A stretch of 64,000 nucleotides of DNA. Origin: Ulota crispa (lineage: Eukaryota; Streptophyta; Bryopsida; Orthotrichales; Orthotrichaceae). A model generated the notes under the pieces. That model searched no databases, was not told where the DNA came from, and saw only the letters and a program-made list of their open reading frames with translations. The position numbers were made by a program, and so were the translations under genes. Shown one piece after another: positions 3,623 through 60,088 of the stretch (positions within the stretch are counted from its first letter, which is position 1; each line of letters starts with the position of its first letter). The stretch covers positions 2,186,727 to 2,250,726 of the forward strand of contig OY987245.1 in assembly GCA_963920765.1 (NCBI GenBank). The letters run 5' to 3'.

Positions 3623-3856
3623 TTAACCCCTAAAGGACTGAGCGTGCTACTGCGACCAATACAATACGGGGTATTTTTCTTGTATTTGGAATGGATCCAC
3701 ACCTCTATTACATTTGAGATCAATAAAGAAATTGGAGAATAGATCAAAGCAATTCTAATGAGCTACTTGAGATCCCAAATTAAAACTTCTTATTAGTAGC
3801 AAATATTGATTATACAGCAGCGTATATACTATGCCCTATGATCCTTTAAGGGTTAA
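3623..3856. mobile_element. TTAA-flanked CCCCTAAA element, short copy (226 bp)
   Basis: TTAA precedes CCCCTAAAGGACTGAGCG (from 3627). The right end is GGATCCTTTAAGGG (to 3852), followed by TTAA. Only the terminal 12 or so bases are clearly inverted. The inside has no coding capacity and little similarity to the longer copies. Confidence 0.55.
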
Positions 3857-3876
3857 CAACAAAAATGTCACTTTTG

Positions 3877-3878
<2 letters not shown>

Positions 3879-3919
<41 letters not shown>
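3879..3919. repeat. (TA)n microsatellite
   Basis: About twenty uninterrupted TA dinucleotides. Apparent IYIY coding on both strands here is an artefact of the repeat. Confidence 0.95.
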
Positions 3920-3924
<5 letters not shown>

Positions 3925-3925
<1 letters not shown>

Positions 3926-4163
3926 TCCCTTGTACTTCCTTCATGGATAGACTGAGACCTAACACTATGTTTCTAAATCTTCTCACAATTTGGGCTACCC
4001 AAAAAATGTGTACATTCGATGAGGATGTTTTTTTTTTGTCTTCCATCCATGGTAAACCATGTCTTCATAGTCACTTCTACAAAAAATGAGATAAAAATTA
4101 GTTTTTCTCCATCCCACAGCATTTTTTCAATAACCGTTGGACAATTCCCGTCCGCCTTGTCAT
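3925..4163. repeat. Dispersed repeat, right part of a CCCCTAAA element
   Basis: Homologous to 21400-21637: both contain ACCTAACAC(T/C)ATG, AAATCTTCTCACAA and TGACCACTTCTA/AGTCACTTCTA blocks in the same order. At 21637 the unit ends in CATTTAGGGG then TTAA. Here the matching end is cut to CATTTAAG, which is also the start of the next element. Confidence 0.6.
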
Positions 4164-4830
4164 TTAAGCCCTCATCACCCATGCTGGTTTGGAGTATCTT
4201 AGAATTTGCTTGAAAGTGAACAAAATGCCAACTTTTTTATCAATCTTATCAAAATTCTCTGAAGCGCAATTGTACAAATTCAAAGTAGACATGTTATAGA
4301 TCACATAGGAAAAGAAACCACAACTATATCACTTATGGATTGAAAGATTATAATGTTTGATCATGAGGGTGTTAAAACTGCAAAAGTGATTTGAAGCCTT
4401 CCAATCCTCTTTTTGCATCTCAAACCTAAAATTGAGGGTACCAAAATAATATGAGTATGTAAAGTATAACATGCATAACCCCAATCAATTTACGGCTTCT
4501 CAAAATCTATTCTACAATTTTTTTAATTGAATTTTTAATGTGATTTTTTCTCCAAGTTCTAGTGTACTTGTAAGCCCATTTCGAAGAGCCTTCAACACTA
4601 GAAAGTGAAGATTTGCAATGGACACCCTTGCACAAATTCTTAAATAGACAAATCACTTTAATTCATTTTCAAAATCAGACTCCTGATGCTGAAACTAGAC
4701 TTCAATAAGAGTTTAAAAATAATAATAATCAATACAAAAAATTTGTAGAAAAAATTTGTAGAAAAGTTGAGCATCCCTGAATAAAATTCAGAGAAGCCCG
4801 ATTTGGGCCCCTTCGGCGGTGAGGGGTTAA
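4164..4830. mobile_element. TTAA-flanked element, 650-bp subfamily, copy 1
   Basis: Starts at TTAAGCCCTCATCACCC and ends GGTGAGGGG followed by TTAA. The inside matches the cleaner copy at 40185-40825 over most of its length; for example ATGAGGGTGTTAAAACT and AAAAGTGATTTGAAG occur in both. The left end is altered and abuts the truncated end of another family member. Confidence 0.6.
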
Positions 4831-5797: not shown

Positions 5798-8700
5798 CTA
5801 TCTGGGGGAAATTGTACTGTTATGAGTACGGGTGGTCGGATTGGCACTGAACGATTGGGTGGAAGAACCGCCTGTTGTGGAACTAGTGAAGGCGGATTCG
5901 TTGTCTGCAGTGGAAGTAGTGTCGGAGGGGTCCATCCACGTTGTTGTTTGAGGCTTATCAGCGTCTTGGAGTAGGGGTTCCAATACACCCACAACAGTCT
6001 GCACAAGAAAGCGCCAGTTCTCTAAGTATCTTACAATAAGGTTTTCAAAGCAAATAGATTGTTGAAGGAAAATTCAAAATAATCTTCTTAATGACTCAAG
6101 AAGTCTCCACAGTCAAATTGATCATATTATAGGAAACTTTCTACCACGATCATTATGATAAAAGAGAGACCACTATATGCATGACGAGAAGGGTTTTTCT
6201 TTATGCTTTTGTCAAAAAATTCGTGAAACCCTATTGTGTACTCGAGGTTGCCAGTAAGCAGATCAAGCTATAGTAGATGGTATAATGATCGAAATTTGCC
6301 ACAGGAGTGTTACCTTCATTGAGGGTCGGTCTTTCTTTTCAGATGCACTGCACTGAATGGCAAGGTTTGCCATCCGCAGGAAAACATCGCGAGGGTAGTT
6401 GCCTTCAAGCTTAGGGTCTACTACCAAGTCAATTCCACCCTCCCTTAATCTCGGCTCCACCTACAGCAACGAAACAAGATTAGTAATGGTGATAAATCTC
6501 TACGTACAAAATGTACCAATAGAAAGAAAAAATTCGATCTCAAATTTTGTTTTAACAACAAAGTTCTTTAGGAAAGTTATTGTAATTCTCTATTAGCCTC
6601 AAAGAGGCTAATAGAATTCAAGGATAAATTAGTGAATTAAGTGGTACACTGCATGAAAAAAAGGCTTCGTTGGTAACTAGTAGACCTGGAGGAATGAAGA
6701 TGTAGTGAACTGGGTTGCAGTGATTACTTACCCACTTAATCAGATTGTACTCTTCACCCCGTGAAACGTGATCAATAACTTTCTGGCCTGTTAGGACCTC
6801 AAGGAGAACCACTCCAAAGCTGTACACGTCGCTGGCTGTTGTCAGCCTCTGGGATACGAAGTACTCTGGATCGAAGTAGCCAATAGTGCCGGCCGGGTTG
6901 GTAGAGACGTGTGTTTGTAACTCGACTGACTCCTTGGAGATGCCGAAGTCCGCCACCTTAGCTACAAAATTGTCATCCAACAAGATGTTGCTTGGCTTCA
7001 CATCTCGGTGAATCACGGGTGGATCCTACAAATTCAACAGAGAGGCAAATTCAGGGCAGATCATTTCAGAAGGTTGGACCACCTGAAATCAAAAACTATC
7101 ATTTTCTAAGATTTGTGATTTGAATTGAAAGCGTACGAATGACACCATAGCATTCTAAAATAGAAATACAACATGCACCCTTTCCACTTCAGCACATGAA
7201 GTATCTGAAGCACTAAAACTTTGAAGAACTGACCCACTTCTAAAGCAATTTGTTCCATGGCCAGGCATGCAATCACTGTCAGATGAGCTCATATGCACAC
7301 CGAGGATGATGGAAGGAATGAACCATTCTAATATGAGTCGCACCCTCGATTAGAAATATATCCTGAAGCTTGTAATCAGTATTGTTTTCCTTGGCTCACT
7401 GTTCATTGATTTCAATGTTATGGCCGACTGAGGTTCAAATCCTGCGGTTGTGATTCCCAAAGATTTTGTCTAAAAGGGTTGGTATCACCAAAGAGCAGAA
7501 AACTCGGGAAAATTAGACTTACTGCAAAAGAGTGGAGATACTCCAAGCCTTGAGCTATTTGCACTGCTATCTCCAATCTCTTATACCAGTTCAAGTACTT
7601 TCCCGCACTTTTTCCTACACCAACATCACCAGAAGTTAAGGGAAGATCGCATAAATTAGAATAAACTGGTATGCTTCATGCCTTTCAACATACATTTCAA
7701 TAAAAACTAAGAAGATCTTGGTCATGACTTACTGAAGAGATGATTGTGAAGGTTCCCATTTGGCATGTACTCGTACACCAGTATCTGTTCACCAGCGTAA
7801 CAAGAATCTCGTTAGCAATCCACTTTAAACAATTACAAAATTACACAATCCAAGTCCGCTGCACAGCAAACATCCAGTTTGAGGCAATTTCTAGGAAATC
7901 ATCAGCCCTCAAGACTGAAATGGATCTAATCACTCCTAACAATCCAATGGCAAAACTGATCTCAATATCACCCATCGCATCGAGATCAGTGTGGTAATCT
8001 AGCAATACATGGCAAGTGCCCCTTAGCTGGTTCACAACAAGCATGACCAAACTTGTCAATAATTAGTGAGTACGAATCAAATCACCTGTAACTCGTTCTC
8101 ATCACAAAATCCTTCCAGGCGGACCAGATATTTGTGGTGCAACCGGCTTAACAGCAGCACCTGTAGGACAATAAAAACACAAGACAAGCATGTGAGTAAA
8201 CATAACAACCAGAAAAAAACCCAAATTTTCCTGAGTAGTAGGAGATACCAAACTGAATTGTTGTTTTTAAAACACCTTCTTGAATAAATCATCCCCAAAC
8301 TTAGAGAACTTGGCACCTCATCCGTATCTGCTGAAGCTATATATCCACCTAAAGGGGCGAGAAACTGGTAGGTGGTTGAGAGAATGTGGCTCTGTTTCCC
8401 CCATTGTCGATATCTCTATAATTCCGAAGGTTTCATTCAACCAGCCACCTTCCAAATCATGACACCCACCAGGGAGTGTATTGAAAATACCAGTTATTTG
8501 AAACTGCTCCACTTTCTCTACTCCAAGTTTTGCAGGTGAATTTTGTGACAAGACACACGAGTAGTCACTCGTTGGTGTGAACCTGAAGGACCAAAAATAT
8601 GAACCAAAACCTAAAACCGTCCAGTAACTCACTGTGGCTGGCACTCCCTCCTCACAATCAGGCTTTTCAAAATGATTGAAAGTGTTTTAAGCATTATGGT

Positions 8701-15432: not shown

Positions 15433-15936
15433 TAAGGGCATCATCAATACAGCACTGGGTATTTGGCAGGGCCTGGGACTGCAAAAACACTGCTATTTTT
15501 TGACTAGTGTATAATTAGAAAATGAGATTACTATCATTGGAAGCGTATAAAATGACATATGGTATTGGAGATTGGACCAACAAACTAATGCCCATTGAAA
15601 AAATAGTTAACGGACAAACAACACGGCAAACCATGCCTAATAAAGAATAATTAGACAGTGGCACTCTAAATTCAAAATTTGGAATGCCACTATCTAATTA
15701 TTCTTTATTAGGCATGGTTTGCCGTGTTGTTTGTCCGTTAACTATTTTTTCAATGGGCATTAGTTTGTTGGTCCAATCTCCAATACCATATGTCATTTTA
15801 CTTGTTTGATGAGTTTTTGTATACGCTTCCAATGATAGTAATCTCATTTTCTAATTATACTATAGTCAAAAAATAGCAGTGTTTTTGCAGTCCCAGGCCC
15901 CGCCAAATACCCAGTGCTGTATTGATGATGCCCTAA
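15433..15936. mobile_element. Harbinger-like foldback MITE, near-perfect palindrome (498 bp)
   Basis: The element (15436-15933) is one long inverted repeat. Each arm is about 230 bp and starts GGGCATCATCAATACAGCAC. The arms differ by a few substitutions and by about 20 bp present only in the right arm near 15803-15822. The spacer between arms is a few bases around 15670. Both sides are flanked by TAA, matching the 3-bp duplication of PIF/Harbinger (Tourist) elements. No coding capacity. A diverged relative lies at 57309-57896. Confidence 0.88.
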
Positions 15937-16559: not shown

Positions 16560-16944
16560 GCAAATGGATGGAGTGGAGCTGTTAGATTCCTATCCAATAA
16601 AACACCAAGTTTGTCAAATTTTGGATGAAAGTTACTAATATCAATAAGTTATATGGGTGAATGTGCACATATTGTTGATTTTATCCAATTTTATCTGTTT
16701 TGTCCATACTTGCTTGCATTGTTGGATGTGTTGTTCTGTCAACAAAAACAAAACAAAAAGAGAATCTTGTCATTGTTCCATGCCTAGATGATTTAGGACC
16801 TACTTTATGAGTTTGTGGGGTCAAGGTAAAAAGCTCTCCTATTTTGCTTTCTAAAAATTGTGAGAGTTTATAACCTACCATCGGAAGATTGAATTTGGGG
16901 ATTCTTAATTCACCTTTGGAATCAAAGTCTCTACTTTGTTTCAA
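16560..16944. repeat. Dispersed repeat left of a TTAA element
   Basis: Shares GTCAAATTTTGGATGAAA and neighbouring sequence with 46690-46860 and, more loosely, with 22320-22545. The 16.6-kb and 22.3-kb copies both directly precede a CCCCTAAA element on its left side. Confidence 0.5.
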
Positions 16945-17876
16945 CCCCTAAATCCCTGAGTGTCCCCTCGAGGGACAAATGGGATTTCGGGCAGGTACCT
17001 ACAGCCTCAATGTTTGTCCTAATTTTTTTGAAACTTTTCTGATAATAGGAAAACACATTAGCTTTTGGGGAATATAATTTTTATTTCAATCAATGCCCAA
17101 AAGCAAAAGTTATGCCTAGATAAGCAAAAAAAATATGCAAATTGGCAGCAAAAAAAATTTACAAAAACTTGAACTTTTATTTTATTTTATTTTATTTTTC
17201 CTCATAGGTTATGGTTTTGTCTACAAGTGAAGCTTTGATCCTTTCCATTTGGACTAATTATGAGAAAGTTATGGACAATCTTGTTTTTCGGGCAGTTCAA
17301 GCATCTTCTTGAAAAAATTACTTATAAACTTCATTTTTGATTGCAAGTTTAACAATTTAAAAAAAAAGATTGTTGGAGAGGGTGAAATTTGCTTGCTAGA
17401 ACAATCTCACCATTGAGATTATTGAGTTTCAATTCCTTTGTAAAGTTATTGACAATTTAAGTTTTTGTTCAATCTCGTACCTTCTTCTACCTATTGTTTT
17501 TTTTAAGAATGAAAATTATGTATTTTTTGTTTTGATTTTTTTCCAAAGATTCTCAAATCAATTTCCCCCCATGAAAAAATAAACCTCAAAACTCCGTGGT
17601 GCAAAATTTTCAAGTTAAAAAAGTTCAAAATCAAATAGTCTAATCATGCAAGGTGCAAAAAAGTCTATTTTTTACACTTTGAATGCAAATGTCTTACAAT
17701 CTGTGCGGTCAAAAATTTTGAATTTTTATTTCCACATTCTTATACTAGTCTAGTACAAGATCCTACGGTTAGATATGCAAAAAGATCAATTTTCAAAAAA
17801 AATTACTCTTTACAATAAAAATGACAATTTTGAGTGTCTTTTGACAAAATAAAGGCCCCAGAAATTTAAGGGTTAA
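16941..17876. mobile_element. TTAA-flanked CCCCTAAA element, 930-bp subfamily
   Basis: Left end CCCCTAAATCCCTGAG from 16945, preceded by TCAA (one change from TTAA). Right end AAATTTAAGGG to 17872, followed by TTAA. Just inside the left end is GTCCCCTCGAGGGACAAATG then TTTCGGGCAGGTACC, diagnostic of the subfamily and shared with 22550 and the inverted copy at 24918-25873. No long open frame. Confidence 0.75.
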
Positions 17877-18125: not shown

Positions 18126-18482
18126 TGAACCCCTAAACGTTGGCACGGACAAAAAAACATTTGCTACCTTCGAAAAAAAACTCAGTATCACATAAAAAGA
18201 CCGATTTTGATCTGATTTTTTTCAAAAGTGATCGTAAAAGCGTAGTGTATCATGGAAGGCATAAAAATTCCTCTTGGGATACATTCATTTTATTTTGTAA
18301 CCCAAATTGTGATACATGGTGTTAGCTCCCGAGCTGCCCTTCTTGCAATTTTCATGAGGGCACCGTGCACTATTTACTTTTCCAACTTTTTGAAGCAATA
18401 CTACTAGTGCCCATGTGCAAAACACTGTAGAATGCTACAGGCAGGGCAAGCCACGGTGATCCATCCATCCTTTAAGGGTTAA
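18126..18482. mobile_element. CCCCTAAA element, short copy (349 bp)
   Basis: Left end CCCCTAAACGTTGGCACGG from 18130, preceded by TGAA. Right end ATCCTTTAAGGG to 18478, followed by TTAA. Likely an internally deleted family member; the inside shows no coding capacity. Confidence 0.55.
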
Positions 18483-21399: not shown

Positions 21400-21641
21400 C
21401 AAAAATTGCAACAAAGGTAGCATGGGACCTAACACCATGCTTGCAAATCTTCTCACAAATTGGAGTTCTTATAAACATGTGGACATTCAATGAGGCTATT
21501 TTTGACATTCCAAAATGGAGCACTTCTCCATGACCACTTCTATAAGAAGATCACATGTAAAAAGACTTTTTTCCCATCTTATAAGATATTTTTTGAGTAG
21601 TGAGGGGACAATCTTTATCCCCTTGGACATTTAGGGGTTAA
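21400..21641. mobile_element. Partial CCCCTAAA element with intact right end
   Basis: Ends CCTTGGACATTTAGGGG at 21637, followed by TTAA at 21638-21641. Homologous to 3925-4163. I could not find its left terminus. Confidence 0.5.
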
Positions 21642-22310: not shown

Positions 22311-22319
22311 AGACTGAGG

Positions 22320-22545: not shown

Positions 22546-23486
22546 TTAACCCCTAAACGCCCAAAAGTCCCCTTGGGGACAAATGGACCTCGGGCATGTA
22601 TCTGTGACTAAATCAGTTTTTATAATTTTTATGAAATTTTTGAAGATTGTGGGGAATTCAAAGATGTACGTGTACATCTAATTTTTTCTTCATTTTGACA
22701 TTTATTGAAGAATTTATGCATGAATTTTTGGACAACAAGAGAGGGTTGGTAGTTTGGGCAGCTCAAAAAACTACTTTAAAATTTTTATTTTTCAAAATTA
22801 AAAATTTGAAATCAATTCTTTAGATTTTTACAAATGTGGGAAGCTTTGAATCATTCAACTTAGATTTATGAGTGAGAAGTTTTGGTTATCGGGTAGGTAT
22901 GGGATTCACGAACCTCCATTCCTTTTGCCCCTTGTAAAATTTGGTCCTTGACTTTTTTTTTGACTTTTTTTTCTTCCAAATTGTAGTAGACTAAGATTCC
23001 TTGATTTTCACCATTTGGATCAAAGTTATTTAGATTTCTCAATTTTACATATATCCTCCAAGTTTGCCAAGAGTATATGCAAATTTCATGGGCTTCTAGC
23101 ATAGCAAGATTTTACAAAGTATGTATCACACCTCCAGTTCATTTGAAAATTCTCCCACACATACCGAACTTGGTCTTCTACATGGGAAAAATACACTTCA
23201 ACTTTGCGTAGAGCAACGTTTTTGATATAGGAGAGGTCGAAGGCATCTAAATTTTTTGGGCAACAGAGATTTTTTTTTTCTTCTAACTTTAGATGTGAAG
23301 ATCTCACTCATTTACATTTAGAATGAGCTGGTTTTTTTCCCACAAGTACCACCCATAGTCTAGGGCAAGATCATACAGTTGGATTTTCCAAAAAAATATA
23401 AATTCCTACCTTTCTACTCATTCCCCCAAAAGTGGCAGTTTTGAGTGACTTTCACAGAGAAAAGGGCTTGGGCTTTTAGGGGTTAA
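22546..23486. mobile_element. TTAA-flanked CCCCTAAA element, 930-bp subfamily, intact ends
   Basis: TTAA at 22546-22549, CCCCTAAACGCCC from 22550, GGGCTTTTAGGGG to 23482, TTAA at 23483-23486. Inside the left end: GTCCCCTTGGGGACAAATGG and CGGGCATGTA. The inside matches the reverse complement of 24918-25873 along its length. A - strand frame at 22866-23102 has a counterpart in that copy, but the codon differences I compared give no sign of protein-level selection. Confidence 0.8.
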
Positions 23487-24913: not shown

Positions 24914-25877
24914 TTAACCCCTAAAGGACCAAGCTCTTTTTCTTTTGAAAATCACTAAAAACTACCACTTTTAAGGGAATGAATAGAAATGTAGGGAAAA
25001 ATGTTTTTTTTGAAAATTCAACCATAAAATCTTGCCCCAGACTATGGGTGGTACTTGTGGGAAAAAAATCAGCTCATTCTAAAAGCAGAGGAGTGAGATA
25101 TTGACATCTAAAGTGAAAAAAAAAAGTCTTTTCCGTGTTGCCCAAAAACTTCAGAAGCCTTTGACGGCTACTATATTAAAAATATTGCTCTACGCAAAGT
25201 TGAGGTTTATTTTTTCCATGTAGAAGACCAAGTTAGGTAAATGTGGAAGAATGTTCAAATGAATTGGAGGTGTGGATCATACTTTGTGAAATCTTGCAAT
25301 GTTGTATGGCCATGAAATTTGCATATACACTAGGCAAAATTGGAGGATTTATGTAAAACTTAGAAATTTGAATTACTTTGATCCAAATGGTAAAAATCAA
25401 GGAATCTTAGTCTACTACAATTTGGAAAATAAAGTAAAAAAAAAAAAAATACAAAGAGCTCAAAAAAGGAAAGCAACAAATTTTACAAGGGGCAAAAAGA
25501 ATGGAGGTTTGGGAGTCCCATTCCTACCCACAAACTAAAACTTCTCATAACTTTCATCTCATCAATCAAAATTGAATGATTCAAAGATTCCCACATTAAT
25601 TTTGTATATAACTAAAGAACCGATTTCAGATTTTTATTTTTTTAAATGCGAGTTTGATTTTTTTTGGTGGATTGCCCACCCTCCCCCTTTTTCAAAACTT
25701 CTTGCATAACTTCTTCAATAAATTTTGGAATGAAGTAAAAACTAGATGCCCACGTAAATTTTTGAATTCCCCACCTTCAATAAAAGTTTCAGAAAATCAC
25801 AAAAAGTAAATTAGCTGTAGGTACATGCCCGAAATCCATTTGTCCCCTGAGGGGATAGTTGATCCTTTAGGGGTTAA
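24914..25877. mobile_element. TTAA-flanked CCCCTAAA element, 956 bp, inverted relative to 22550
   Basis: TTAA at 24914-24917, CCCCTAAAGGACCAAG from 24918, TTGATCCTTTAGGGG to 25873, TTAA at 25874-25877. The subfamily block with GGGGACAAATGG is at the right end, so this copy lies opposite to the one at 22550-23482. It appears to be inserted in a Mutator-like MITE whose right half resumes directly after it. Confidence 0.82.
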
Positions 25878-26982: not shown

Positions 26983-27907
26983 TTAACCCCTAAATGACCA
27001 AACAACGTTTTCACCAAAAATTCTCCAAAACTGTCAATTTTAGAGCATCAGTCAAATTTGAAAACAAAAACATCTTTATGCATATGTGATCATAGGATCA
27101 TGTAGTAGAATAATTTTGTATGATGTGAAAAAAAATTCAGAATTTTCTACTGCATGGATTGGAAGATAGAATGGTTTCAATATTCAAAAACATCTTGTGA
27201 AAAATCAGGCAGCTACCCTTTAGAAGGTAAAATTTCTAAGGAAAAAGATCACATGGGTGGTGCTTCTCTAGATTCATTGAATTGCCTAAGTAGGGTACAT
27301 GTTGAAATAGTTTTAAATCATTTGGGGTTGTATAACATATGGGAAAAAAGTAATAAGTAAAAAGAAGTAGAGAATGATTGAGAACACAAAATTGTTAAGA
27401 ATTGAATTATGGAAATGAAATATGCCAATCCCAATGGTTGTAATGTTGTAATAAAAAATTTGCATCCTTTGGCTTTGGTATTTTTTCAAAATAATGAAAA
27501 TTGAGTAAAATAAAGGACTTCAAAGTTTATTTTTAGCTTAGAGAATCCATAACTGCCCGCAAACTAAAACTCCTCATAACTTTCATCTCATTGATCTAAA
27601 CGGAATGCTTTAAAAGCTTTCTACATTCATCTAAATCTCCTAAAACAATTTCAAAATTTTGTTTTTGAAAAAATTAAAAATTAATAAATTTCCTAGACCG
27701 CCAAGCCCTAGGAAAAAAACAACATGTTAGATTATATCTTCTTATTCATAATTCCAAATGTCATGAAATTTAGTGCGTATGAAAGATAAATCTTGTTCCC
27801 ACATTTTGTTAAAATTTTAGCCTAAAATATGAAAATCTCCAATCATAAGTACCTGCCCAAAATTGCTATGTTGCTAAAAAAAGGGGACTTGGTCCTTTAG
27901 GGCTTAA
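26983..27907. mobile_element. TTAA-flanked CCCCTAAA element, subfamily 2, copy 1 (917 bp)
   Basis: TTAA, then CCCCTAAATGACC from 26987. The right end is GGTCCTTTAGGGC at 27903, followed by TTAA. Most of it matches 28175-29098 in the same orientation (for example AAAGAAGTAGAGAAT and CTCCTCATAACTTTCATCTC). Confidence 0.78.
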
Positions 27908-28170: not shown

Positions 28171-29102
28171 TTAACCCCTAAAGCACTAAGCTCAAATTTT
28201 CACAAAAACAGCTCTAAAACTGCCATTCTAGTACAAGTACCAAATTTTAAAAAAAAAACCTTTTTTGACAAATGTAACCATAAGATCTTGTACTACACTA
28301 GTATCAAAAGATGTATAAAAAAAATTCAAAAAATTTCACCATTTAGATTGTTAGATATTTGGGTTTGAATTGAAAAAAAGCCATTCTTTGTCTTTGCAAA
28401 AATTTTGCTAGTTGCACTTCACAAGGTCATATTTGTAAAAAAAACTCCAAATTGATTGTAATTTTTTGGATTTGTTCTTCAAAGCAAGTTGGATACACAC
28501 TTGAAAATTTTCAAATCATTTGGAGTTGTATAACATATGGAAAAAACTTAGTAAGTAAAAAGAAGTAGAGAATCATTCAAACCACTAAATTGTTAAGAAC
28601 TTAATCATGGAAATGAAAAATTCCAATCCCAATGGTTGCAATGTTGTGATATACAATCTACATCTTTCCGTTTTGTTTTTTTTTCCTAAAATGTTGAAAA
28701 TTGAGTAAATTAATGAACTTCAAAGTTCATTTTAGAGTAGAGAATCCATAACTGCCCGCAAACAAAATCTCCTCATAACTTTCATCTCATTGATCAAATT
28801 GGAATGATTCAAAGCTTCCCAAGTACATATAAATCTAAAAAACCAATTTCAAAAAAAAAAATTCAAAAAATGAAATCTTTAAAGAAGTTTTTTGGCTGCC
28901 CTTGAGCAAAGAAAAGTACATATCATGCAATAACTTTTGAACCATGAAGTCAAAAGTTATGAAAATTGTTGGGCCTTAAAGCTACTCCTTGAACAAATGA
29001 TGTGTGAAAATCTCAAAGAAAAACAATGAAAACGCCATTGGTAGTGAGTTGCCCAAAATTGCTATATTGTCAAAAAAAGGTGTTTAGTGCTTTAGGGGTG
29101 AA
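28171..29102. mobile_element. TTAA-flanked CCCCTAAA element, subfamily 2, copy 2 (924 bp)
   Basis: TTAA, then CCCCTAAAGCACTAAGC from 28175. The right end is TTTAGTGCTTTAGGGG at 29098, followed by TGAA (one change from TTAA). The terminal 16 bp are near-perfect inverted repeats. A direct repeat of the copy 270 bp to its left. Confidence 0.78.
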
Positions 29103-40180: not shown

Positions 40181-40829
40181 TTAACCCCTAAATGCCCAAG
40201 GCCTTTCTGAACTTCTTCGCATTTTCACGAAAGTGAATAATCAACCAACTATTTCAAAAATCTCATCAAGTTATTTTAAACAGTAACTGTACAAATTGAA
40301 ACTTGACATGTTCGAGATTACAGAGAAAAAGAAAACACAACATCACTTATAGTTTGAAAGATTATAACGTTTGAACATGAGGGTGTTAAAACTACAAAAG
40401 TGATTTGAAGTTTTCTAATCTTCATTTCACATGTCAAATCTAAAAAGTTGGTCATCAAAAAAATGTGAGGTTTAAGGTCATTACATGTTTAACCTCAACC
40501 AATTTACGATTTTCAAAATCTACTCATGCATTTTTTTAAGTGGATTTCTAATGTGGATTTTTCTCCAAGCTCTAGTGTGTTTGAGGCTCATTTTCAAGAT
40601 CCTCCAACACTAGAAAACTCAAGATTGCAGTGGACACCCTTGTACAAAATCTTGAATGAAAAAATCATGAACATTCATTTTCATAATCAGATTTTTGATA
40701 CTGAAAATAGACTTCAAAACAAACTTGTGTTCAAAAGAAAATACCAAAAATAGTGATTTGATAAGATTTTATATGTCTTCAAAGTTTTGCAAACACCCAA
40801 ATTGGGTGCCCTGGGCATTTAGGGGTTAA
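40181..40829. mobile_element. TTAA-flanked CCCCTAAA element, 650-bp subfamily, intact ends
   Basis: TTAA at 40181-40184, CCCCTAAATGCCCAAGG from 40185, CTGGGCATTTAGGGG to 40825, TTAA at 40826-40829. The terminal 14 bp are perfect inverted repeats. The inside matches the older copy at 4164-4830. Confidence 0.85.
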
Positions 40830-45809: not shown

Positions 45810-45829
45810 TAGGTGAAAAAAAGTAGCTA

Positions 45830-46251
45830 GCCACTAGCTACACCCATTAGCGTGAATGTCCTCATGTGGTCACTGGCAATGTCAATGAGTGACAGATAGA
45901 AAAGCAAATAGTTATGGGTGATCAAGTGATGGTTGTGAGTGACAAAATGATGGTTATAGGAACAAAGTGGTGGTTTTGAGAGACTAACATGATAATTTTG
46001 AGTGTCCCATCTCACTATTTAAGAACCAAATAAGTATATTTTTTAGCATCTCTTACACACAACTATACAATTTTAATGATTTGGACTTTGAAAAAGTCTT
46101 CGTGAACAAATGCTTGCAATTGGAACTTTGAAATTGATGCCAATATTTTTGGTTTATTCTTCCTAATTTGACAATATTATTTTCCAAATTCATCAATTGA
46201 TTTTCCTACTCCAAACTCCTTAGTTTGATGCTTATAGGTGCTGCTACCTTA
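45830..46251. mobile_element. TA-flanked MITE, family B, diverged copy
   Basis: The left side TACACCCATTAGCGTGAATG and the right end GATGCTTATAGGTGCTGCTACCT followed by TA match the termini of family B. The inside contains degenerate GTGATGGTTGTGAGTGAC-like repeats (45890-46010). The left boundary is approximate. Confidence 0.5.
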
Positions 46252-48420
46252 GTAGGTTTGAAAACAAGGTGTTTTCCATGCAAAAATGGGAAACATTTCA
46301 TGCGTAGTCAAGTCTAAAAGTTTTGCGCTTTTATCAAGGTGTGTAAAATGTGCAAGCATGGCTTGAAAAAAAATTAGAAGCATGGACTTGTTCAAGTGAG
46401 ATAATGAAGAAATGACAAGTATAGATCTTGAAACCCCCATTACATTCAAAATGCTTAAAAACAATTTTTGTACGTTATTTAATTATATAATATTTTGAAC
46501 TTTGCATGTATCATGATTTTATGCTGAGCTATAAACCAATTTGGATAGAGGTAGAAAAAAGAATTTTCTTTTGTAAAAATACGAGATTTAATTTTGGAAT
46601 CTTTTGAACCATAATTTATTTTGCTTTAAAAAGTTCTAGATCCAAATGCTTCATCTGCTTAGGCACACTTAAAGATTAACCATGAAAATTTTGGGTGAAA
46701 AATGGATGAAATATTTAAATAATACTATAAAAAATAGATGTGTCAAATTTTGGATGAAATTTACTAATAGTAATTGATTCTATGATTGATATGCACATAT
46801 AAATGATTTACATGCATTACAAAGAGTTTGTTACTCAACTAATAAAGAGGACAAAAAACATAACAAGGAAAACAATCGTTACCTTTGTTCTCAAATAAAA
46901 CAAGCACTTAGATTACAAGAGATTATATTTTTGGAGTATTGAATTGTTTTATGAATAAATTATGTACTCAAACTTTGTCTAATTAGCTTTTTTTAATGCA
47001 AAATGTTGTCCCTTATCCCTTGCTATCAAATTGCAACAAAGAAGGCATTTGTTGACTCCCATCTTGTTTTTATGCAAGTCAAGCCTTGTCATTTTTTGAT
47101 AAAAAATTGTAAGAATATGAAGCTTTTTAATACTTTGTGCAATAGATAAATATTGTTTGTTTTTTATAATAAGTTGTCTAATTACAAGATTGGAAGTATT
47201 TTGTATAATATGCAAGCATTTGCCACTTCTTCATGATAAATTATTTAGTTATGAAGATGATTGATATTGTACAATGAACAAGCATCACTTCAATTCTTGA
47301 GTATAACTTGATGGTTACTAGGTTGATGGGTAATTTGCATAATCAACTTGCATTAGTCACTTTCCAATGATATGATGGTATGTTAGAAGGTTGACGATAC
47401 TTTTATACAATAATAATGTATAATTATGTTACTTTTTGAAAATAAGTTGGTGAACTCATTGAAACTTTGTAATAAACCAACACAATCATGTCTTTGTTTA
47501 ATGATAAATTGTTCAATAGCATGGTTGATTGGTCGTTTCCACACCAAACATGCATCAATCACTTTTTGACAAAAATTATTAAGTTATCAAGTGTTCCTAT
47601 TTGCACAATGGGCAAGCATTAGTCATGTCTCAAACATAAAATTGTTGATTCCAACATGATAGAAAACTTGTATAATATAGTCAACTATTTGTTTCATTTT
47701 GGTAATTAGTGTTTAGCTACAAGTGCAACATATGCTTTCTATCAAGCTTTCTACAATGATTACAAATTTGTCATTGTTCTAACATTGGAGTGATGAATTA
47801 AAAAGTCAATAGTTGTTTTGTACAATAGACAAATGTGCACTTAACATTTTTTGATGATGTGCTTTTAAGTTCAAAGGTTGATGTGTATTTTCTACCTTAC
47901 CTTTTTGGAATAATGTTATAAATGAATCATAGTTTTCTCATAAAGGTGATTATTTATCAAAATTGTAAGTTAAATAAAAATCTTTATTGAATAGTCTTTA
48001 CACATATGTGTTAGTATGGAGCACCTAGTTGAACATGAAGTGAATGTATGTAAATTTTTGTGACTTTTAGTTTGTTTATATTTTACTCATAAAGTTCTAA
48101 ATGAATGCTCTAGTAGTTTGATATTTATTGAGCTTACACTTTCCTTTCAATTAAATTTTATCCTATCCAATCTTAATAAATAATGCTATTCTTTAAGCCA
48201 TACCAATCCTAACAAATTTTGATGAGCAACATAATATATCTTCTCCTTCAATAGAATTAAGATAAATTAAAAGCTTGGACTTCAAATCAGCAGTGTTTAC
48301 TCAATTATGATGTTTGATCTTTAGAAGTGCCTTTGCACAAATATCCGGAGAAAATCCAAAGTGAATCTTGGCATTTTCAACATTTTCATGTAGGAAGCCA
48401 CACCATATTTTAATGTATTG
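46252..48420. other. AT-rich intergenic DNA
   Basis: No gene seen. 46690-46860 shares GTCAAATTTTGGATGAAA and its surroundings with 16613-16690. Confidence 0.5.
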
Positions 48421-48972
48421 GAACAATCATAGAACTGGAGATTGTGTGTCAAGCCAAGAGAGGATTGATCATGGAACTTGAGGTTATGTGTCAAAATAAG
48501 AGAGGATTGATTGTAGAATTGGAAATTGTGTATCAAGGCAAGAGATGATTGATCATGGAATTGGAGATTATGCGTCAAGGCAAGAGATGATTGATCATGG
48601 AATTGGAGGTTATGTGTCAAAATAAGAGAGGATTGATTGTAGAATTGGAAATTGTGTATCAAGGCAAGAGATGATTGATCATGGAATTGGAGATTATGCG
48701 TCAAGCCAAGAGAGGATTGATCATGGAACTTGAGGTTATGTGTCAAAATAAGAGAGGATTGATTGTAGAATTGGAAATTGTGTATCAAGGCAAGAGATGA
48801 TTGATCATGGAATTGGAGATTGTGCATCAAGGCAAGAGAGGACTGGTCATGGAACTAGAGATTGTGTGTCAAGATAAGAGAGGATTGATTGTAGAATTGG
48901 AAATTGTGCGTCAAGGCAAGAGATGACTGATCATGGAATTGGATATTATGTGTTAAGGCAAGAGAGATTGAT
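48421..48972 (-). repeat. 42-bp minisatellite with 126-bp higher-order unit
   Basis: About thirteen tandem 42-bp units such as AAGGCAAGAGATGATTGATC plus TGGAATTGGAG. Two unit types alternate so that a three-unit (126 bp) block recurs: AAAATAAGAGAGGATTGATT appears at about 126-bp spacing. As 42 is a multiple of 3, a - strand frame from 48830 to 48321 reads twelve or so 14-residue repeats (HNLQFHDQSSLALI, HNFQFYNQSSLILT) before a unique tail. No homologue or promoter is known to me. Confidence 0.9.
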
Positions 48973-50483
48973 TGTCACAATAAACTAGTATTGAAAGCAA
49001 CTGGACAAAATCAAATTTGACCAAGAAATGTCTTATCCATATTATTTACTTTGAGTTAGTATTTGTGGTATTATTTTCTCATTGTATAGAAGATAGTGCA
49101 AATAGTAATATTCATTGCTACAAGACAAGACCGTCTGCAATATGGACATAACACTTTTAGGTTGAATGACATATATTTAGGTCACCAAGTCACATCAATC
49201 CAAGATTTAAAAAATATTTTTTGAATATTAGGTAGTCTGTTTATAAGGTGAGGCTTAAGAGTCAATGGGGTTCAAGTATTGTAATATAAATTTATGGTAG
49301 GACCATTGTTTAGGCTCAATTGGTTATAAATGGGGCTAAATGATTTAGTGAGCAGAAAATATTTGGTTAAGTGCAAGTGACAAGAATTTTATCAAATATC
49401 AATTGCACTAATAAAAGGTTTAGATTGATTTTTGTTTTTGTTTTGCAAGAAGTAAAGGACACTATATCTTTTGTATATTCAAAACTAGTTTCAATAAAGT
49501 TTCACTTCACATTTATTAAATAATATTTCTATAAAATAACATGTAGGGCACATATGTATGAAAATTTGAGCTCTAGATTTCACTAGGTCCCTTTTAATAA
49601 TTGGAGGATTTTCTTGTACTCTTTAAAACAATATATCTTGAAATTAAGTGATTAAATAGCTCTCAAGAGTCCGTAGGAGGCTAGGATTAAAACAAAGGGG
49701 CACTTGTGATCATATATGTAAATACTAGTGTGCACAAATAAATTATAGATTAAGAGACTAGAGTATCATTTGATTCACAAAAAGCCATGTGGAATTTATG
49801 TAAAATACTTGTAATATATGTACTTTGTGATAAATGTAGTTGTTTGGTCAATGTTAGTTGAATTTGTTGTGCCCAACCACCCCATTGTATAGCAAATGTT
49901 TCTAGTATTGTTCATAGATAATGGAGATGGAAGTTGACATTTGTGTGTTTTTGAATACTATAAGTCATTCCATGAAAATTTTCAATAATACTTTAGAAGT
50001 TTGTTTTTCATAGTAAACAACTTGAGCTCAAGATCATTGACTTTAATAATGCATATTTTTTTTTAGCAACCTCCAAACTCCTATTTCTAGAGTACTTATT
50101 GAAAATTCAAACTTTTCCATGCAATATTACAATGAATGTTTTCATTAAACTTGCAAATCTTCATTATGTATGGATGAAACTTTTCCATAATGTTTTTCAA
50201 AGATGAAACCACATGTCTTTTATAGTCATAAAAATTTCAATGCTTTTGGCAAAAATGAAAATTGTTGTTATTTTCTAAATAAATAGTTGAAAAATAGTCG
50301 TATCAAGTGATAACCATGTTTGAATAATAAAAAAACCTTACCACAAAATAAGGGTGTAAACCAAACTTTGACCTCAGTCTAAATTTTGGATTGTAGCATT
50401 AGGGTTAAATTTTCAAATTGCAATATCAAATTTTCCTAAGAAAGGATAAATTAGAAATGATGAATTTTGTATGCTAATTTCCC
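48973..50483. other. AT-rich intergenic DNA
   Basis: No gene or clear repeat recognised. Confidence 0.5.
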
Positions 50484-51209
50484 TTAACCCCTAAAGGATT
50501 GTTGTTCCTTTGGGGGAAAAATAGGATTTTGGGCATGTAGTTAACACTAAACTACTTTGTGTGATTTTTTGAAATTTTTGAGGAAGGTGGAGAATTCAAA
50601 TATATGCGTGGGCATCTAAATTTTTCTTCATTTTGACATCTTTTGAAGAAGTTATGTATGAATTTTTGGAAAATGGGAGAGGGTAGGGAGTCCAAAAATC
50701 TCTCTAGTTTTTATTTTTGTTTTAGATAAAAATTTGAAATTAGTTTTTTAGATTTACATGTATGTGGGAAGCTTTGAATCATTCTATTTTGATTGACGAG
50801 ATGAAAGTTGTGAGAAGTTTTGGTTCGTGGGTAGGCATGGTTTTGAGAGACTCCATACCTACCCACAAACTAAAATTTCTCATAACTTTCATCTCATTAA
50901 TCAAAATTGAATGATTCAAAGCTTCCCACATACATGTAGATCCAAAGAACCAATTTCAGATTTTTATTTAAAAAATGCAATTTTAGAAGAAGTTATTGGG
51001 CTGCCCGCCTTCCCCCATTTTCTAGAAATTTATGCATAACTTCTTCAACAAATGTGGGAGTGAAGAAAAAATTAGATGCTCACGTATACCTCTAAATTCC
51101 CCACCTTCCATAAAAGTTTCAGATTATCACACAAAGTTGTTTAATTGTAAGTACATGCCTAAAATCCCATTTGTCCCCCGAAGGGGATAGTTGAGTCTTT
51201 AGAGGTTAA
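50484..51209. mobile_element. Palindromic derivative of the CCCCTAAA family (718 bp)
   Basis: TTAA then CCCCTAAAGGATTG from 50488; right end GAGTCTTTAGAGG at 51205, then TTAA. Unlike the 930-bp copies, both halves are the same half-element in opposite directions: GGCATGTA, ATTTTTTGAAG-type blocks, GTGGGAAGCTTTGAATCATT and GAGATGAAAGTT occur in the left arm and again reversed in the right arm, meeting near 50850. Confidence 0.8.
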
Positions 51210-52303: not shown

Positions 52304-52310
52304 TGAATAC

Positions 52311-52550: not shown

Positions 52551-52601
52551 TTACCACACACAACTGATTTCAATAATAAAAAGCCAATTGCTAAATGACA
52601 C

Positions 52602-52888: not shown

Positions 52889-53164
52889 ATTAGCAAGCAA
52901 GACATTGCTTATAGATGAGATTCATCTTTGAAAATGTCCCATCATTGCCTAGTTGACAACTCATTCAAATTGTTCATGATCGTTTATTATAAACTAGTTA
53001 TCTATTGTGGACTGCGTGAGCCAATCGCTAAGCAACACGTCAGTGGAACTCACTAATAAATCGATAATAAACTGGTCATGATATAGAAATGTACCGAGCT
53101 TTGAGACTCCTATCAAATGGTTTTGGATTGTATAAGGTAGTACACTCATAAATTGTTTGCACAT

Positions 53165-53290
53165 TTTCACTATTAGAAAATGAGCATTTTATGATTTTGA
53201 TTTATGATTGTTGTGAGTCATTCATAATTCTAAATGACTCACAATAGTCATAAATTAGAGTCATAAAATGCCCATTTTTTAATAGTGTTT
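53165..53290. mobile_element. CACTA-like MITE with TTT duplication (120 bp)
   Basis: The element (53168-53287) runs from CACTATTAGAAAATGAGCAT to ATGCCCATTTTTTAATAGTG and is inverted-repeat throughout, with TTT outside both ends. It shares its terminus with the larger element at 146-423. Confidence 0.85.
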
Positions 53291-54236: not shown

Positions 54237-56232
54237 TTACAAGATAAATGGGAGAGTTCCAATGGTTTGGCGCTCGTAAGCTTTGATGAGATCCGCTGTC
54301 TTTGCCAACGTCTCGTCAATGCGGTGGTGATGTCTGCGATGGAACTGCGGTTCCGTTTTGTTCTCCGTCGAGATGAACGTGCTGCAGAGCTCGTGCCGCC
54401 TGTTGATCGTATCGTGGTAGTGGTAGTACCTGATTTTATCCCCCTTGGGATACACGTTCTTCCCCTTCTTCATGTTCATGGACATGTGTATCCCTGTCGC
54501 AGCGGCGTGGCGGGCTTGCACCACAAACTTGCGGTCGTAGCGCACGTTTCTCTTCGTCACTCTTCGGTACACCAGCTTCTCAAATGTCCATTTTCTGCAG
54601 CATCGAATCATTCTTGTCAGACCACTAAGGAAGAAGAAGTTGCAAAACCATTTAGTAGGGACATGGTCCCGTGATCGAGGTGACCAACAGCAACTCGTCA
54701 CACTTCCTATGCATTCGGTTGACTTTTACTTTTGGCAAGCTCAGGGTGAAAAGGCATGGCATGCTAAATTTGTCAAGGGCAGCTCAGCTTTGAATGGAAA
54801 ATGCGGCTGTGTTCTCATATCCATTCCATAGTGAAGCTTATCCACCATTTGCAACTATGAATGATGGCATAAGAATTCTCAAGAGAGTTCAGCTCTTGCA
54901 CCCAAAGAGATCGCTCTATTAACCCATTATCGACCAGGCCACCAGAATGTGGTCGATTTCTCGTGTATTCACTGAACCCGCCTGGTCGTTAATGGGTTAA
55001 GAGATCTCCCAGTCACGGAGCATTTTGAACCATAGCCGAGAATGGCAAAGCACTTGATCCTACCTTGCATGGCTGTCGACGGTGGTGTTGTCGGCCACGC
55101 AGAGCTCGTTGGAGATGGCGACCTGCTCGAACGTGATTTGAGTGACTTTGGGATCCTCATTAAGGACCTTCGCCAGAGTCGTGGTCGGCGGCACATGAAC
55201 ATACTCATCGACGTCGAAGAAAAACGTCCATTTCGCCAGAAATCGCGACCGAAACAGGCAATCGTTCACGACCAAGAACTGATTGTGGTAATACCCGTCG
55301 TAAAGCTCCTGCTGCCGGATGTTCTGTACCGTCACTCGCCCCGTCTTGATCCAGGGATCCAGTACTTTCCAAACGTCAGGGTGAAAACCTCCCGCATCAT
55401 GTAACATGAAGTGCGACCTGTCGCCCAAGAAATACATGTGATACGCCAGCCACTCGCGCATCCGCTGCGGGCTCACGTCGCCGTAAATCGAGGATCCACA
55501 GTATACGTAGTCGTAAGGGTACGGTGGGTTGAACATCGTCGCATTGTACTCCCCCGGCTTCTCCGTGAGGACCGTCACTCTCTCCGGTTGCCTGTACCTG
55601 TCGCCATAGCTGACGCGCAACACGAGCTCCCCGCCTTCTCGTTCCGCGCCGACGTCCTCTTCAAACGTGCAGGTGATCACCACCACGGTATACAGCTTGC
55701 CGTAGTTCCAATCCGGCAAGATCTTGCTCGAGTTTCCCCGGATTTTCCGAGCTCCAATCCACTCACAAGCGTAGGGCGGCTCATAGAACTCCTCGAACGG
55801 CTTTGCTACGAGCCCTACAATTGAAAACTCTCGTGGACTGCCGCGGTAGGCGCCCATTTCGATGTACAGGTGGGTTGCTAAGCCGTGAGGCTTAAACACT
55901 CGGAGCTCCCCTTTGGTGGTGTCCATGGTGGAGGTGTTGATCTTCTCATGGAGCAAATCTGTCGAGAACGGGTTGAAATTCTCGAGGTCGCATGGCCATG
56001 ACCACTTGCTCGTGTCCAAAGTGCAAAACTGAGCGACCATGAAGAAGAGACCGCAGGCGACAACCAAGCCATAAATGACGTTCAACCGGATTTCGGAGCA
56101 GGCGGACATCTGAAACTTGATGGCAGCGTGGCATCCCATCTCCTTCCTCCACTTGTTCGGATACTCCTCCACTCTCTCCGCTCCCTTCTCCACCTTGATC
56201 ACCGCGTCCGGCTTCACCTTCCCCACCACCAT
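54237..56232 (-). CDS. GT92 family (DUF23) glycosyltransferase, beta-1,4-galactan synthase-like
   Basis: A type II Golgi membrane enzyme of 508 residues (Arabidopsis GALS proteins are close to 500). In GALS enzymes this family adds beta-1,4-linked galactose from UDP-galactose to pectic rhamnogalacturonan I side chains. Exons: 56232-55064 and 54594-54237, joining in phase 2 (HA-R-KWTFEK). In order: cytosolic tail; membrane anchor LNVIYGLVVACGLFFMVAQF (51-70); a lumenal domain with HDAGG (278-282), DGYYHNQF (314-321), VVNDCL and the metal-binding DxD as FFFDVDE (337-343). Exon 2 has YDRKFVVQ, ATGIHMS, KIRYYHYH and a C-terminal helix. All motifs known to me are present, so it should be functional. 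Galactan specificity is inferred from similarity. The single intron holds a TTAA-flanked palindrome. Confidence 0.92.
54919..55000. mobile_element. 74-bp TTAA-flanked palindromic mini-element in the GT92 intron
   Basis: TTAA, then CCCATTATCGACCAGGC from 54923. The right arm GCCTGGTCGTTAATGGG ends at 54996, followed by TTAA. The arms are 17-18 bp with one or two mismatches and a spacer of about 40 bp. The ends are CCC/GGG like the larger TTAA family, but the rest of the terminus differs, so it may be an unrelated foldback. Confidence 0.6.
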
Positions 56233-57305
56233 GTCTCGCCTCCTACTGTGATTCCACTACTCCCTCGTTGCAAAATTCAATGCTCTCTTGTTGCAGATCC
56301 CGGGTTACAACAGTACCATAATCATCTTGGCTGCTTCAGCATTCATCAACTTCACCACAATAGTTCAAAAGTAAACAGCCAACTCCCGGGTTTTGGAACT
56401 TTTTTCACTCACTGAAGAGCCTTTCTCCTCAATTATCTCATTGCCTCCATCTCTGTTCAAACCCTGCTTCAGGAAAATCAATCACAAATCAATTACAGAA
56501 GAGGATCGCAGCTCAAAAGAGAGCTGAAACCACACCGAGCTGGCTTGACCCTGACGGCTCCGGGAGCTACAAGCAGAGTTCAAGCAAAATCGCTCTATCC
56601 ATCAGGTAATTTGAGCTTCATGGCTAGACTACTAGAGGATGTCAAAGTTAGAAACTTGAGCTCCGAGAATGAAGTGAACTTGGGCGACACGAGTTGACAG
56701 CTCTATATGCGGCCAAGTACAATAACATGAGATTCGGAGCTCTGAATTGCGCAGGACTGGATTCAATGAAGAAACAGCAGAGTAGCGTCGCTGAAATCGT
56801 GAATTGTGACACCCTTACTAAAAACTGAACACAACAAGTCCTCACAAAGGTGTGATTGATAAGATACTCGTACACCAGCTACACCAGCTAGCTGGTGAAC
56901 TAATTAGGCGAGATTTCTCGAAATCTTGAACACCACTAGACCTTCGGACTTTTAAGTCGATCGGTACACTACAATCTTCTTCTCCGACATCCCTCTATAT
57001 CTCTCTCGCTCTCTCGTGGAGGAAACAACCGACATGTGAAGTGATGTTGCCTTTTAGAAGAGGGACTCCGAACTTTCACTTAAAGTGGCAAGACACATGA
57101 TGCCGCCCTCACTTGTAAGCTGCTCACAGGAGCATGACAATGTTCAGCCTGTCTTCGGGAGACACAGCTATTTCCACGTGTCTGGGATTTGTAGAGTGCC
57201 ACTGGGTCACGAAGGTCCACCAACAGGCGGTGTGCAATCTCTCAGTGCCTGCCAAGTGTTTTGTTTGCGAATGTTCATCTGGAGTCCCGGCGGAAGTAAG
57301 CTTCC
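56233..57305. promoter_or_regulatory. 5' flank of the GT92 gene
   Basis: Upstream region and probable 5' UTR of the - strand GT92 gene. No TATA box I would commit to. A short CT-rich run (TCTCTCTCGCTCTCTCG, 57000-57016) is present. No other gene recognised. Confidence 0.4.
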
Positions 57306-57899
57306 TCAGAGCACCATCAATCCAGCACTGGCATCATCAATCCAGCACTGGCACCACCATTTTAGCACTGGCATCACCAATTTAGCACTGGCATCATCAA
57401 TCCAGCACTTGGAAAGACTCACCAAAAATATTACTATGTTCTGATTTGGTGTATAACTAGAAATTGTGATTACTATCATTGGAATCCTGTACAAAAATTT
57501 TAAAATATTAAAATAGAGAAAATAATATATGGAATTGGAAATTGGACATTCAAAGTAAAGTTCATTGAAAGCAAGTTAAAGACAAAAGGGTTGACAAATC
57601 AAGTTTCATAGGGGAATCTATGATAATGGCACACAAAATTTGCAAAATTTGGTGTGTCATTCATTATCTTGAACTTTTTTTCGTAGGCATAGTTTGTTGT
57701 GTTGTTTGGATTTTAACTTGCTTTCAATGGGCATTATTTTGTCTGTCCAATTTCTATTTCCATATATTATATTGTTTTATTTACAAGGTTTTTGTATAAG
57801 CTTCCAATGATAGTAATCACACTTTCTTATTATACACCAATCAAAAAATAGTAATATTTTGAGTGAGTTGTTTTGAGTACTAGATTGATAATGCTCTCA
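57306..57899. mobile_element. Harbinger-like foldback MITE, copy 2 (588 bp), TCA duplication
   Basis: The element (57309-57896) begins GAGCACCATCAATCCAGCAC and ends GATTGATAATGCTC, with TCA on both sides. The inside parallels the copy at 15436 (ACTATCATTGGAA, ATATGGAATTGGAAATTGGA, GGCATAGTTTGTTGTGTTGT) but the arms are more diverged. Near its left end a 20-bp unit (CATCATCAATCCAGCACTGG) occurs about five times in tandem (57312-57412), absent from the right end. Confidence 0.82.
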
Positions 57900-59150
57900 A
57901 AGCGTCTTGTGCAGCACGCTACCTAAGCCCCGCACTCCCTAGCCGTAATAGCTTCCTTGTTTTCAATCCCCAATAACACTCAACATAGGTCATGGGGCCT
58001 TTAGATTGAGCCGCATTCCAATCAAATTTTGGCTTTCAACAAGTCCCCTTCAAGGTCCTTGGCAAGCACTATTCACGCACAACCCCACTCCATAGCCAGG
58101 TGTACCCAAGCGATTTGTTGTAACACAAGTGCAAGCCTTGCAAGAGAACTTCAAGCCTTGCCTTGAAGGTTCGGGCCATTCTCATTGTGAAATCTCATTT
58201 ATCTAGTTGTTGCAAAGTGTGCTGGAGGAGATGCCCTCAGTCATTCATTCCAGAACCCACACCATTGTTGATACCCTTGCCTCCACCAGAGGCTTTCATT
58301 GTTGAGACTTGAGAAGTAGCGTTTGGAATGGAGGGAAGCTATTTTGCGAGCGTAGAGCAATGAGCCATGAGCTGTGAGCATAGATTTGTGAGCATAATCT
58401 TTTTTTGGCATAAAATGGAAATGAAAACTAAGAAAAAAAAAGTATTGATTTAATGTGGACCTTTTTAGATTTGGCGGTTTTAGGATAAATTTTTTTATGA
58501 TTGAGAATGCCAAAATCCTATAACCATTTTTTTATGCTTGTACATGGATGCAAAAAATCGTATAACCATGAAAATAAGACTAGTACTTGGTGAAAGATGC
58601 ATGAATGTTGCTAGCAGGACAATAATGATTTGTAGACAAGAAAGTTACATGTAATATTACAAAATTGAAATATTAGAAGTGATTACGATATATGATCTTA
58701 AGAAAAACAAAGATAAGAAATACGTCAATGAATTACAAGCAATTTCTAAACATAATTGCTATGGGGTAGACAACAAGTAATGAAACACAAGTTCATTATT
58801 GCTTTTACGTATTTCAACAAGAATCAGAAATTTTTTAAAATATTTTTTATGGGCATTATTATATTATAAACATTTTATTCGATTAATGAGAACTTCAAAG
58901 AAAGAAGAAAAACAAGACAAATAAAATGAGAACTAGTGAAGGGAGTGTAAACCACAAAATTAGCTTTAATAAAGATAATAAGCAATGTAGGATTTAGGAT
59001 CTGCATTTGATTGGTTTGCTGGAACAAAAGAAGTAAGGGCAAATATGACTTGTAAAATAAATCAATTAAACTTAGAGTAGATATTAGTTCAAAGAAAATC
59101 GTAATCCTTAAAAGGGTGATAACTTCAAATAACTAACTCAATATATTGAG
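57900..59150. other. Intergenic, no gene recognised
   Basis: No gene seen. The DNA shifts from moderately GC-rich (to about 58270) to AT-rich. Confidence 0.45.
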
Positions 59151-60088
59151 TTAACCCTTAAAGGTCCAAAGGGTGTTTTCACCAAAAACTACCAAATTTT
59201 GTGTTTTTTCAATATGCTAATGTGAATTTAAAACTATTTTTGAAACTTAAATTGTACGAAATTGTAGTAAACTATTTAAGTATTGAGTGTGAAAAATTTC
59301 AACCCATTTTACCACACAAATTGAAAGATTATAGCATTTGAAATTTATATAAGAGTTTTTTTTGTCCCTACCCAAATGGGTCAGCAGATTTTGAGCCTCT
59401 TTGAAGTCTAATTTTTGGTAGGCATGAATTAAAGCTTTTTTTCCACTGATATCAAAAATTCAAAATCTTGTTAGGCACACTCATGAAAAGCTTACTCTAA
59501 ATTGCCCTGCATTATAAGGAGGTTAAGTGAATTGGCAATACAATAGTCATTCTTTCATGATTTCTTGTGCACTAAGGACATTTTTTATTTGAAATTTGAA
59601 TGATGAAAAGTTAGAGACAAACATTTGGAATGTTTGAAAAAAAATTCAAGAGCTTTGGATTTATAAATTGAAAGATAATAGGCCCTGAAGTTAGAAGAAA
59701 ACATTTTTTCTTGAAACTGCCAGAACATAGTTAACAAAGTTTGACTCCCATTAGAATGTGATATGAGACCTCAATTTATTTATTTTTTGACAATTGTACA
59801 CCATGTATTTTTAGTTACATATTTGCCAATTTTCAGAAGTTGATGAGAGTTTTAGCATAAGATTCTCCAAAGATGCCCAAAGTGCCCAAGTTGCCCAAAT
59901 TCTTTTGGGTAGCATATCTTTTGAATTGAGCATCCAATTGGGGAAAAAACTATATTTCCACTTGGAGGATTCATATTTACACCTTGTGTAATAGTTTTGA
60001 GAACATCCAATAAAAATTAACTCTATATGACTCTACTTGAGTTCTCAAGTGGTTGTTGGAAGGACACTTGGGCCTTTATGGCCGTTAA
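59151..60088. mobile_element. TTAA-flanked CCCTTAAA element (930 bp), diverged
   Basis: TTAA, then CCCTTAAAGGTCCAAAGG from 59155. The right end is TTGGGCCTTTATGGCCG at 60084, followed by TTAA. The early inside (GTGTTTTCACCAAAAACTACC) is like subfamily 2 at 26987. It is the most diverged long copy. Confidence 0.6.

Follow-up and report, generated by a model that had tools for sequence, protein, structure and literature searches.

TTAA-bounded repeat elements of the moss Ulota crispa as probable non-autonomous members of the piggyBac superfamily

The piggyBac element of T. ni (6x67) and piggyBat (9c0f), members of a transposon group known chiefly from animals, have a DDE_Tnp_1_7 transposase core, a TTAA target and terminal inverted repeats (TIRs) that start with CCC. 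According to the accessible part of one study (PMC2872659), piggyBac TIRs are about 12-19 bp long with a CC[C/T]T terminal motif, and the coral CMITE elements are TTAA-flanked with CC[C/T]T ends, the family I TIR being common to the genomic piggyBac AmiPB1 and an element-free allele having been found. For native plant piggyBac, the portions of the literature available to us hold small repeat-table counts (1230 copies and 122 kb in the fern Ceratopteris, PMC6890710; 1 copy and 75 bp in Stipa, PMC8319324) or the general statement that plants, like fungi and animals, contain piggyBac elements (PMC8086355, PMC10813416); in rice, insect piggyBac was introduced as a tool. Here we analyse a 64-kb stretch of the genome of the moss Ulota crispa (contig 4, bases 2186727-2250726; the window) containing about twelve repeat elements that are bounded by TTAA and have the ends CCCCTAAA...TTTAGGGG. 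These elements are very probably non-autonomous DNA transposons of the piggyBac superfamily, comprising miniature inverted-repeat transposable elements (MITEs) and longer deletion forms.

The analysis demonstrated TTAA-bounded ends, empty sites with a single TTAA, and elements that carry a transposase between the same ends, together with internal-deletion derivatives of these last. The Ulota elements resemble T. ni piggyBac and piggyBat in transposase core, target and CCC-starting TIR, but differ in their moss host, in the length of the transposase-bearing element (5.5-5.7 kb) and in low-complexity frames upstream of the core. Coral CMITE, as far as its published description was accessible, is likewise a TTAA-flanked MITE whose TIR is common to a genomic piggyBac, whereas its host is an animal and the AmiPB1 TIR reads CCCTTTCCCGTCC. 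Ceratopteris and Stipa share with Ulota the presence of piggyBac-labelled repeats in a land plant, known there, in the parts of those papers seen, just as repeat-table counts. The genome searched comprised 274.8 Mb in 157 contigs; the accessible part of the assembly report gives cbUloCris4.1 as 275.00 Mb in 408 scaffolds (PMC11803377), so that small pieces are missing from the sequence searched.

Within the window, TTAACCCCTAAA with up to two mismatches occurs 28 times, 11 of them exact, against 9.9 on average and at most 16 in 100 shuffles. At 16 termini a TTAA precedes a match to 11 or more of the 16 TIR bases, compared with a mean of 0.41 and a maximum of 3 in 100 Markov runs, and all but one of these termini (at 55000) fall in the elements listed below. 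A repeat family with TTAA-bounded ends, proposed in an earlier note on this DNA, is thereby confirmed. The inverted end of about 16 bp reads CCCCTAAA(G/T)GCCCAAG, which fits the length and the CC[C/T]T motif of piggyBac TIRs. Both ends are readable in ten elements, whereas the earlier note had counted eleven two-ended copies; the copy that it placed at 4168 is decayed and is assigned by homology. TTAA flanks, claimed for all, are present at most elements but mutated at three sites (TCAA at 16941, TGAA at 18126 and TGAA to the right of 29102). The copy reported with only a right end at 21637 was recovered, its TIR matching at 15/16 bases and its interior resembling other loci. Element lengths sum to ~8.3 kb of 64 kb when this copy (21641) is excluded, in agreement with the predicted total of roughly 8 kb. 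The range is 234-964 bp; to none of the three length classes suggested (about 930, 650 and 230-350 bp) belongs a 726-bp palindrome at 50484. As expected of MITEs, the window elements are short, have TIRs and a high copy number, and contain no transposase frame. They are, in window positions and with no strand assigned:

3623-3856, non-autonomous element of piggyBac type, 234 bp with both TTAA counted; left end TTAACCCCTAAAGGACTGAG, reverse complement of right end TTAACCCTTAAAGGATC
4164-4830, decayed copy of ~667 bp, relative of 40181-40829 by homology, ends diverged
16941-17876, non-autonomous element, 936 bp; left target site duplication TCAA, right TTAA
18126-18482, non-autonomous element, 357 bp; left target site duplication TGAA, right TTAA
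21300-21641, shortened element with right end only, TIR CCCCTAAATGTCCAAG; 21300 is an arbitrary cut
22546-23486, non-autonomous element of an abundant family, 941 bp; TTAA on both sides
24914-25877, inverted member of the 22546-23486 family (77.9% over 981 bp), 964 bp; TTAA on both sides
26983-27907, non-autonomous element, 925 bp, 71% to 28171-29102 over 942 bp; TTAA on both sides
28171-29102, non-autonomous element, 932 bp; right TTAA changed to TGAA
40181-40829, non-autonomous element, 649 bp; TTAA on both sides; left TIR CCCCTAAATGCCCAAG
50484-51209, non-autonomous element, 726 bp, nearly full-length palindrome (self-inverted at 79% over 682 bp); TTAA on both sides
59151-60088, non-autonomous element, 938 bp; left end TTAACCCTTAAAGG, irregular right end

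The element at 4164-4830 was recognised as a decayed family copy by its 77.5% identity to 40181-40829 across 511 bp; it begins GCCCTCATC and ends, on the reverse complement, with CCCCTCACCGCC (also given as CCCCTCACC). A genome search with 22546-23486 gave 7804 first-look candidates, 40 of which were scored. Among the 41 matches listed, the element itself included, 38 are near full length, and these relatives, self aside, are 86-90% identical. In nine further copies of the family TTAA is present at 17/18 ends and exact TTAACCCCTAAAGGCCCAAG at 11.

In the genome as a whole, exact TTAACCCCTAAA occurs 30,972 times (15,477 forward and 15,495 reverse), against 77 occurrences (41 and 36) of the same 12-mer read backwards, and 1448 of 1727 exact copies of CCCCTAAAGGCCCAAG (84%) are preceded by TTAA. 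The density of the exact 12-mer in the window (11 in 64 kb) is ~1.5 times the genome average (30,972 in 274.8 Mb). Scaling the window share of 8.3/64 kb by this density suggests that the elements make up roughly 8% of the genome, a value extrapolated from one window rather than counted. The piggyBac superfamily is already known; its scale in this land plant is unusual.

Transposase genes were sought with the DDE_Tnp_1_7 profile (PF13843), which returned 120 matches (best E 1.3e-73) when 116 of its 527 candidates were scored; 14 control genomes gave no match. None of the 120 listed matches is located within the window, and tblastn of 20 transposase stretches against it (E 1e-3) found nothing, the same queries recovering 20/20 control loci. 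The earlier observation that no transposase is visible thus stands for the window, but the genome holds 527 first-look candidates. Most listed copies are broken; the matched stretch is stop-free in 10/120 rows, several of them partial. Judged by eye and uncounted, the stops are mostly TAG and TGA with few TAA, an excess that would be expected if methylated cytosines had decayed to T.

Twenty transposase loci were fetched for analysis of their ends, and their transposase stretches form nine groups at 50% protein identity. Three loci (L030, L040 and L046) represent one transposase-bearing family with the TIR CCCCTAAATGCCYAAG. The L030 element spans 5746 bp from TTAA to TTAA and the L040 element 5456 bp from TTAA to TTGA, and alignments between the two start and stop at these ends. 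L046, whose left TIR is lost, still shares its right end with them, as well as most of the region at the left end. All three copies are broken or partial. The L030 transposase matches piggyBat 9c0f (1.7e-16) and piggyBac 6x67 (3e-13), and DDE_Tnp_1_7 is its sole Pfam domain. Two of its Asp residues align to Asp of both proteins, and a third Asp lies within GVDVADQ in the next reading frame, outside the alignment to 9c0f and 6x67; these may be the catalytic residues of the piggyBac triad. A Cys-rich tail is visible in the L030 and L046 frames, that of L030 without a reported Pfam domain. Upstream of the core, both loci also have long low-complexity Glu/Gln-rich frames (430 and 464 aa) whose N-terminal stretches resemble each other; these frames may represent an N-terminal portion of the transposase that changes rapidly. 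The piggyBac class that the earlier note had assigned is therefore supported by DDE_Tnp_1_7 copies in the genome, one family of which has the same TTAA-CCCCTAAA ends; the gene with matching ends that it proposed to look for was found in L030, in L040 and, as regards the right end, in L046, in a land plant as it had supposed.

Transposase-bearing and short elements are connected by a genome search with the whole L030 element, for which 40 of 6140 candidates were scored. The L030 right end (query 5809-5830) was reached by 37 matches, three of them at transposase copies, and the left end (query 61-70) by 29, every one paired with a right-end match at the same locus and on the same strand. Thus 29 of the 34 right-end matches away from transposase copies also have the left end, with an overall length of 905-1064 bp. 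These paired-end matches are internal-deletion forms of the piggyBac element, and their size is about that of the 930-bp class of the window. The long right-end block of L030 is matched by no window element, so none of the latter belongs to the L030 deletion family. The left TIR of 40181-40829 is identical over 16 bases to that of the L030/L040/L046 family; its right end matches the L030 left end over 37 bp at 89%, and it matches L040 and L046 over 20 and 21 bp at 100%. The commonest end in the 22546 family agrees with the piggyBac-family TIR at 15/16 bases. At C1:886890-887828, two elements seem to abut with one TTAA common to both, the derivative ending at 887820 and the next TTAACCCCTAAA starting at 887817.

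Kolobok and Sola3 also target TTAA. That one of these other superfamilies made the window families, piggyBac merely sharing its target, would be consistent with the fact that most window families have no identified transposase-bearing parent. Such an origin is made very improbable by the TIRs, in which several window ends agree with the piggyBac family at 15-16 of 16 bases, and by a piggyBac internal-deletion series of the same size and form.

Insertion at TTAA was examined at paralogous sites without the element, and 21 joined flank pairs were searched against ~361 kb of fetched, partly redundant DNA. In this search a single TTAA is present at the empty sites of the non-autonomous elements L010 (3/3) and L012 (2/2). 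For L030, the two paralogous empty sites read, both elsewhere in the genome, have a single TTAA, with flanks 85-86% identical on both sides. Two empty sites lie in the window itself:

28511-28900, plus strand, empty paralogous site of the L011 insertion with a single TTAA, inside 28171-29102; 87% over 393 columns
45929-46222, plus strand, empty paralogous site of the L010 insertion with a single TTAA; 79% over 297 columns

Tourist-like MITEs are common in plants. Elements of this PIF/Harbinger type, duplicating 3 bp (TTA or TAA) within a preferred TTAA context, could also leave TTAA flanks, which by themselves fail to separate duplication of TTAA from that of TAA, TTA or TA, and ATAA at four of the six relatives of the L011 site would suit a TAA duplication equally well. 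All four bases of TTAA are nevertheless present at the L030, L010 and L012 empty sites, and the same ends bound elements that encode DDE_Tnp_1_7, a finding that largely refutes a Tourist origin; we regard it as slightly less probable still than one from Kolobok or Sola3. Least probable of all is that L030-type elements are composites, a piggyBac gene having been swallowed by unrelated TTAA elements so that the shared ends are coincidental. A nested insertion is seen at the L029 left end and, with elements this dense, we estimate that two such ends would not rarely fall within a few kb of each other by chance. Against this reading, both end regions are common to three transposase copies by alignment (the left terminal bases of L046 being lost), the right end is reached by two more transposase copies, and the whole 5746-bp element is absent from two paralogous single-TTAA sites.

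Several observations weigh against assigning all of these elements to piggyBac. Most window families appear tied to a transposase-bearing element by the TIR alone, and the CCCCTAAA end was defined by alignment at just 3 of the 20 fetched transposase loci. Spanning single-TTAA matches were obtained for just 3 of the 21 joined flank pairs. The empty-site check proposed earlier was borne out at L030, L010 and L012 but mostly not at L011, where one of six relatives has TTAA, four have ATAA and one has GTAA, nor at 24914-25877, whose joined flanks match a repeat with relatives that read TTCAT and have no TTAA. The joined flanks of 40181-40829 gave no clean empty site; against a C8 paralogue they match as two segments separated by 373 bp, with the break ~15 bases from the TTAA. 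A second transposase family, grouped by protein similarity (L042, L031 and L043), has at L042 the right end TTAACCCTTTAGCGACC, which differs from the CCCCTAAA type. It was rejected as a parent, and because of this end and its few copies (51 first-look candidates only) L042 is taken to represent a different piggyBac family. A further candidate parent considered for the 22546 family was L029 (C7:11819342), whose right end matches these elements over 58 bp at 81% and whose last ~590-650 bp were matched at 38 other places. The link is unproven because the left 'end' of L029 consists of a nested 926-bp element present in many copies and because alignment to a C10 paralogue resumes just past the right end (~120 bp), after 160 bp found only in C10.

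If the elements are non-autonomous members of the piggyBac superfamily, a piggyBac transposase produced from another part of the genome would recognise the ~16-bp end described above and, supplied in trans, insert the element at TTAA. Each window family may have been mobilised by this transposase or a close sibling. By analogy with known piggyBac, movement would be by cut-and-paste with seamless excision, and copy number probably grew mainly by transposition. That piggyBac ranks among the main builders of this moss genome, with tens of thousands of non-autonomous copies, ~8% of the DNA and diverse resident transposases, some with open frames, and that a land-plant lineage carried, perhaps still carries, a working piggyBac, seems to us evenly poised between right and wrong.

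TTAACCCCTAAA was not found in the open-licence papers searched, and no study of a native moss piggyBac was seen in partly surveyed open-licence titles and abstracts, repeat databases being outside this scope and an earlier description possible. The word 'piggyBac' is absent from the main text of a study on elements expressed in the moss Physcomitrium. A Niphotrichum paper (PMC10619864), taken up as a possible mention, was discarded, the one of its two occurrences shown being 'piggybacking'. Abundant transposases with tens of thousands of TTAA-bounded ends would constitute a piggyBac system native to a plant and open to tests of amplification, silencing and a possible horizontal origin, and the Ulota elements would serve as a reference family by which 'unknown' repeats of moss assemblies could be labelled.

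Two transposase copies are matched in two pieces, each stop-free inside (L044 4410-5696, C1:1180709-1181995; L043 4287-5516, C8:19570986-19572215). They have an intron-interrupted look and may be spliced transposases or genes adopted by the host; the 10 kb fetched for L044 revealed no CCCCTAAA end next to its transposase copy.

Elsewhere in the window, 15435-15934 is a nearly perfect palindrome with arms 97-98% complementary, related to 57509-57860, and looks like another, younger inverted-repeat element. Tandem arrays of 13-bp and 42-bp units occupy 32386 to ~33050 and 48384-49055, respectively, the 13-bp array keeping two reading frames open. Pfam matches on the minus strand identify a protein kinase fragment at 6621-7025 and a glycosyltransferase family 92 frame at 55063-56256.

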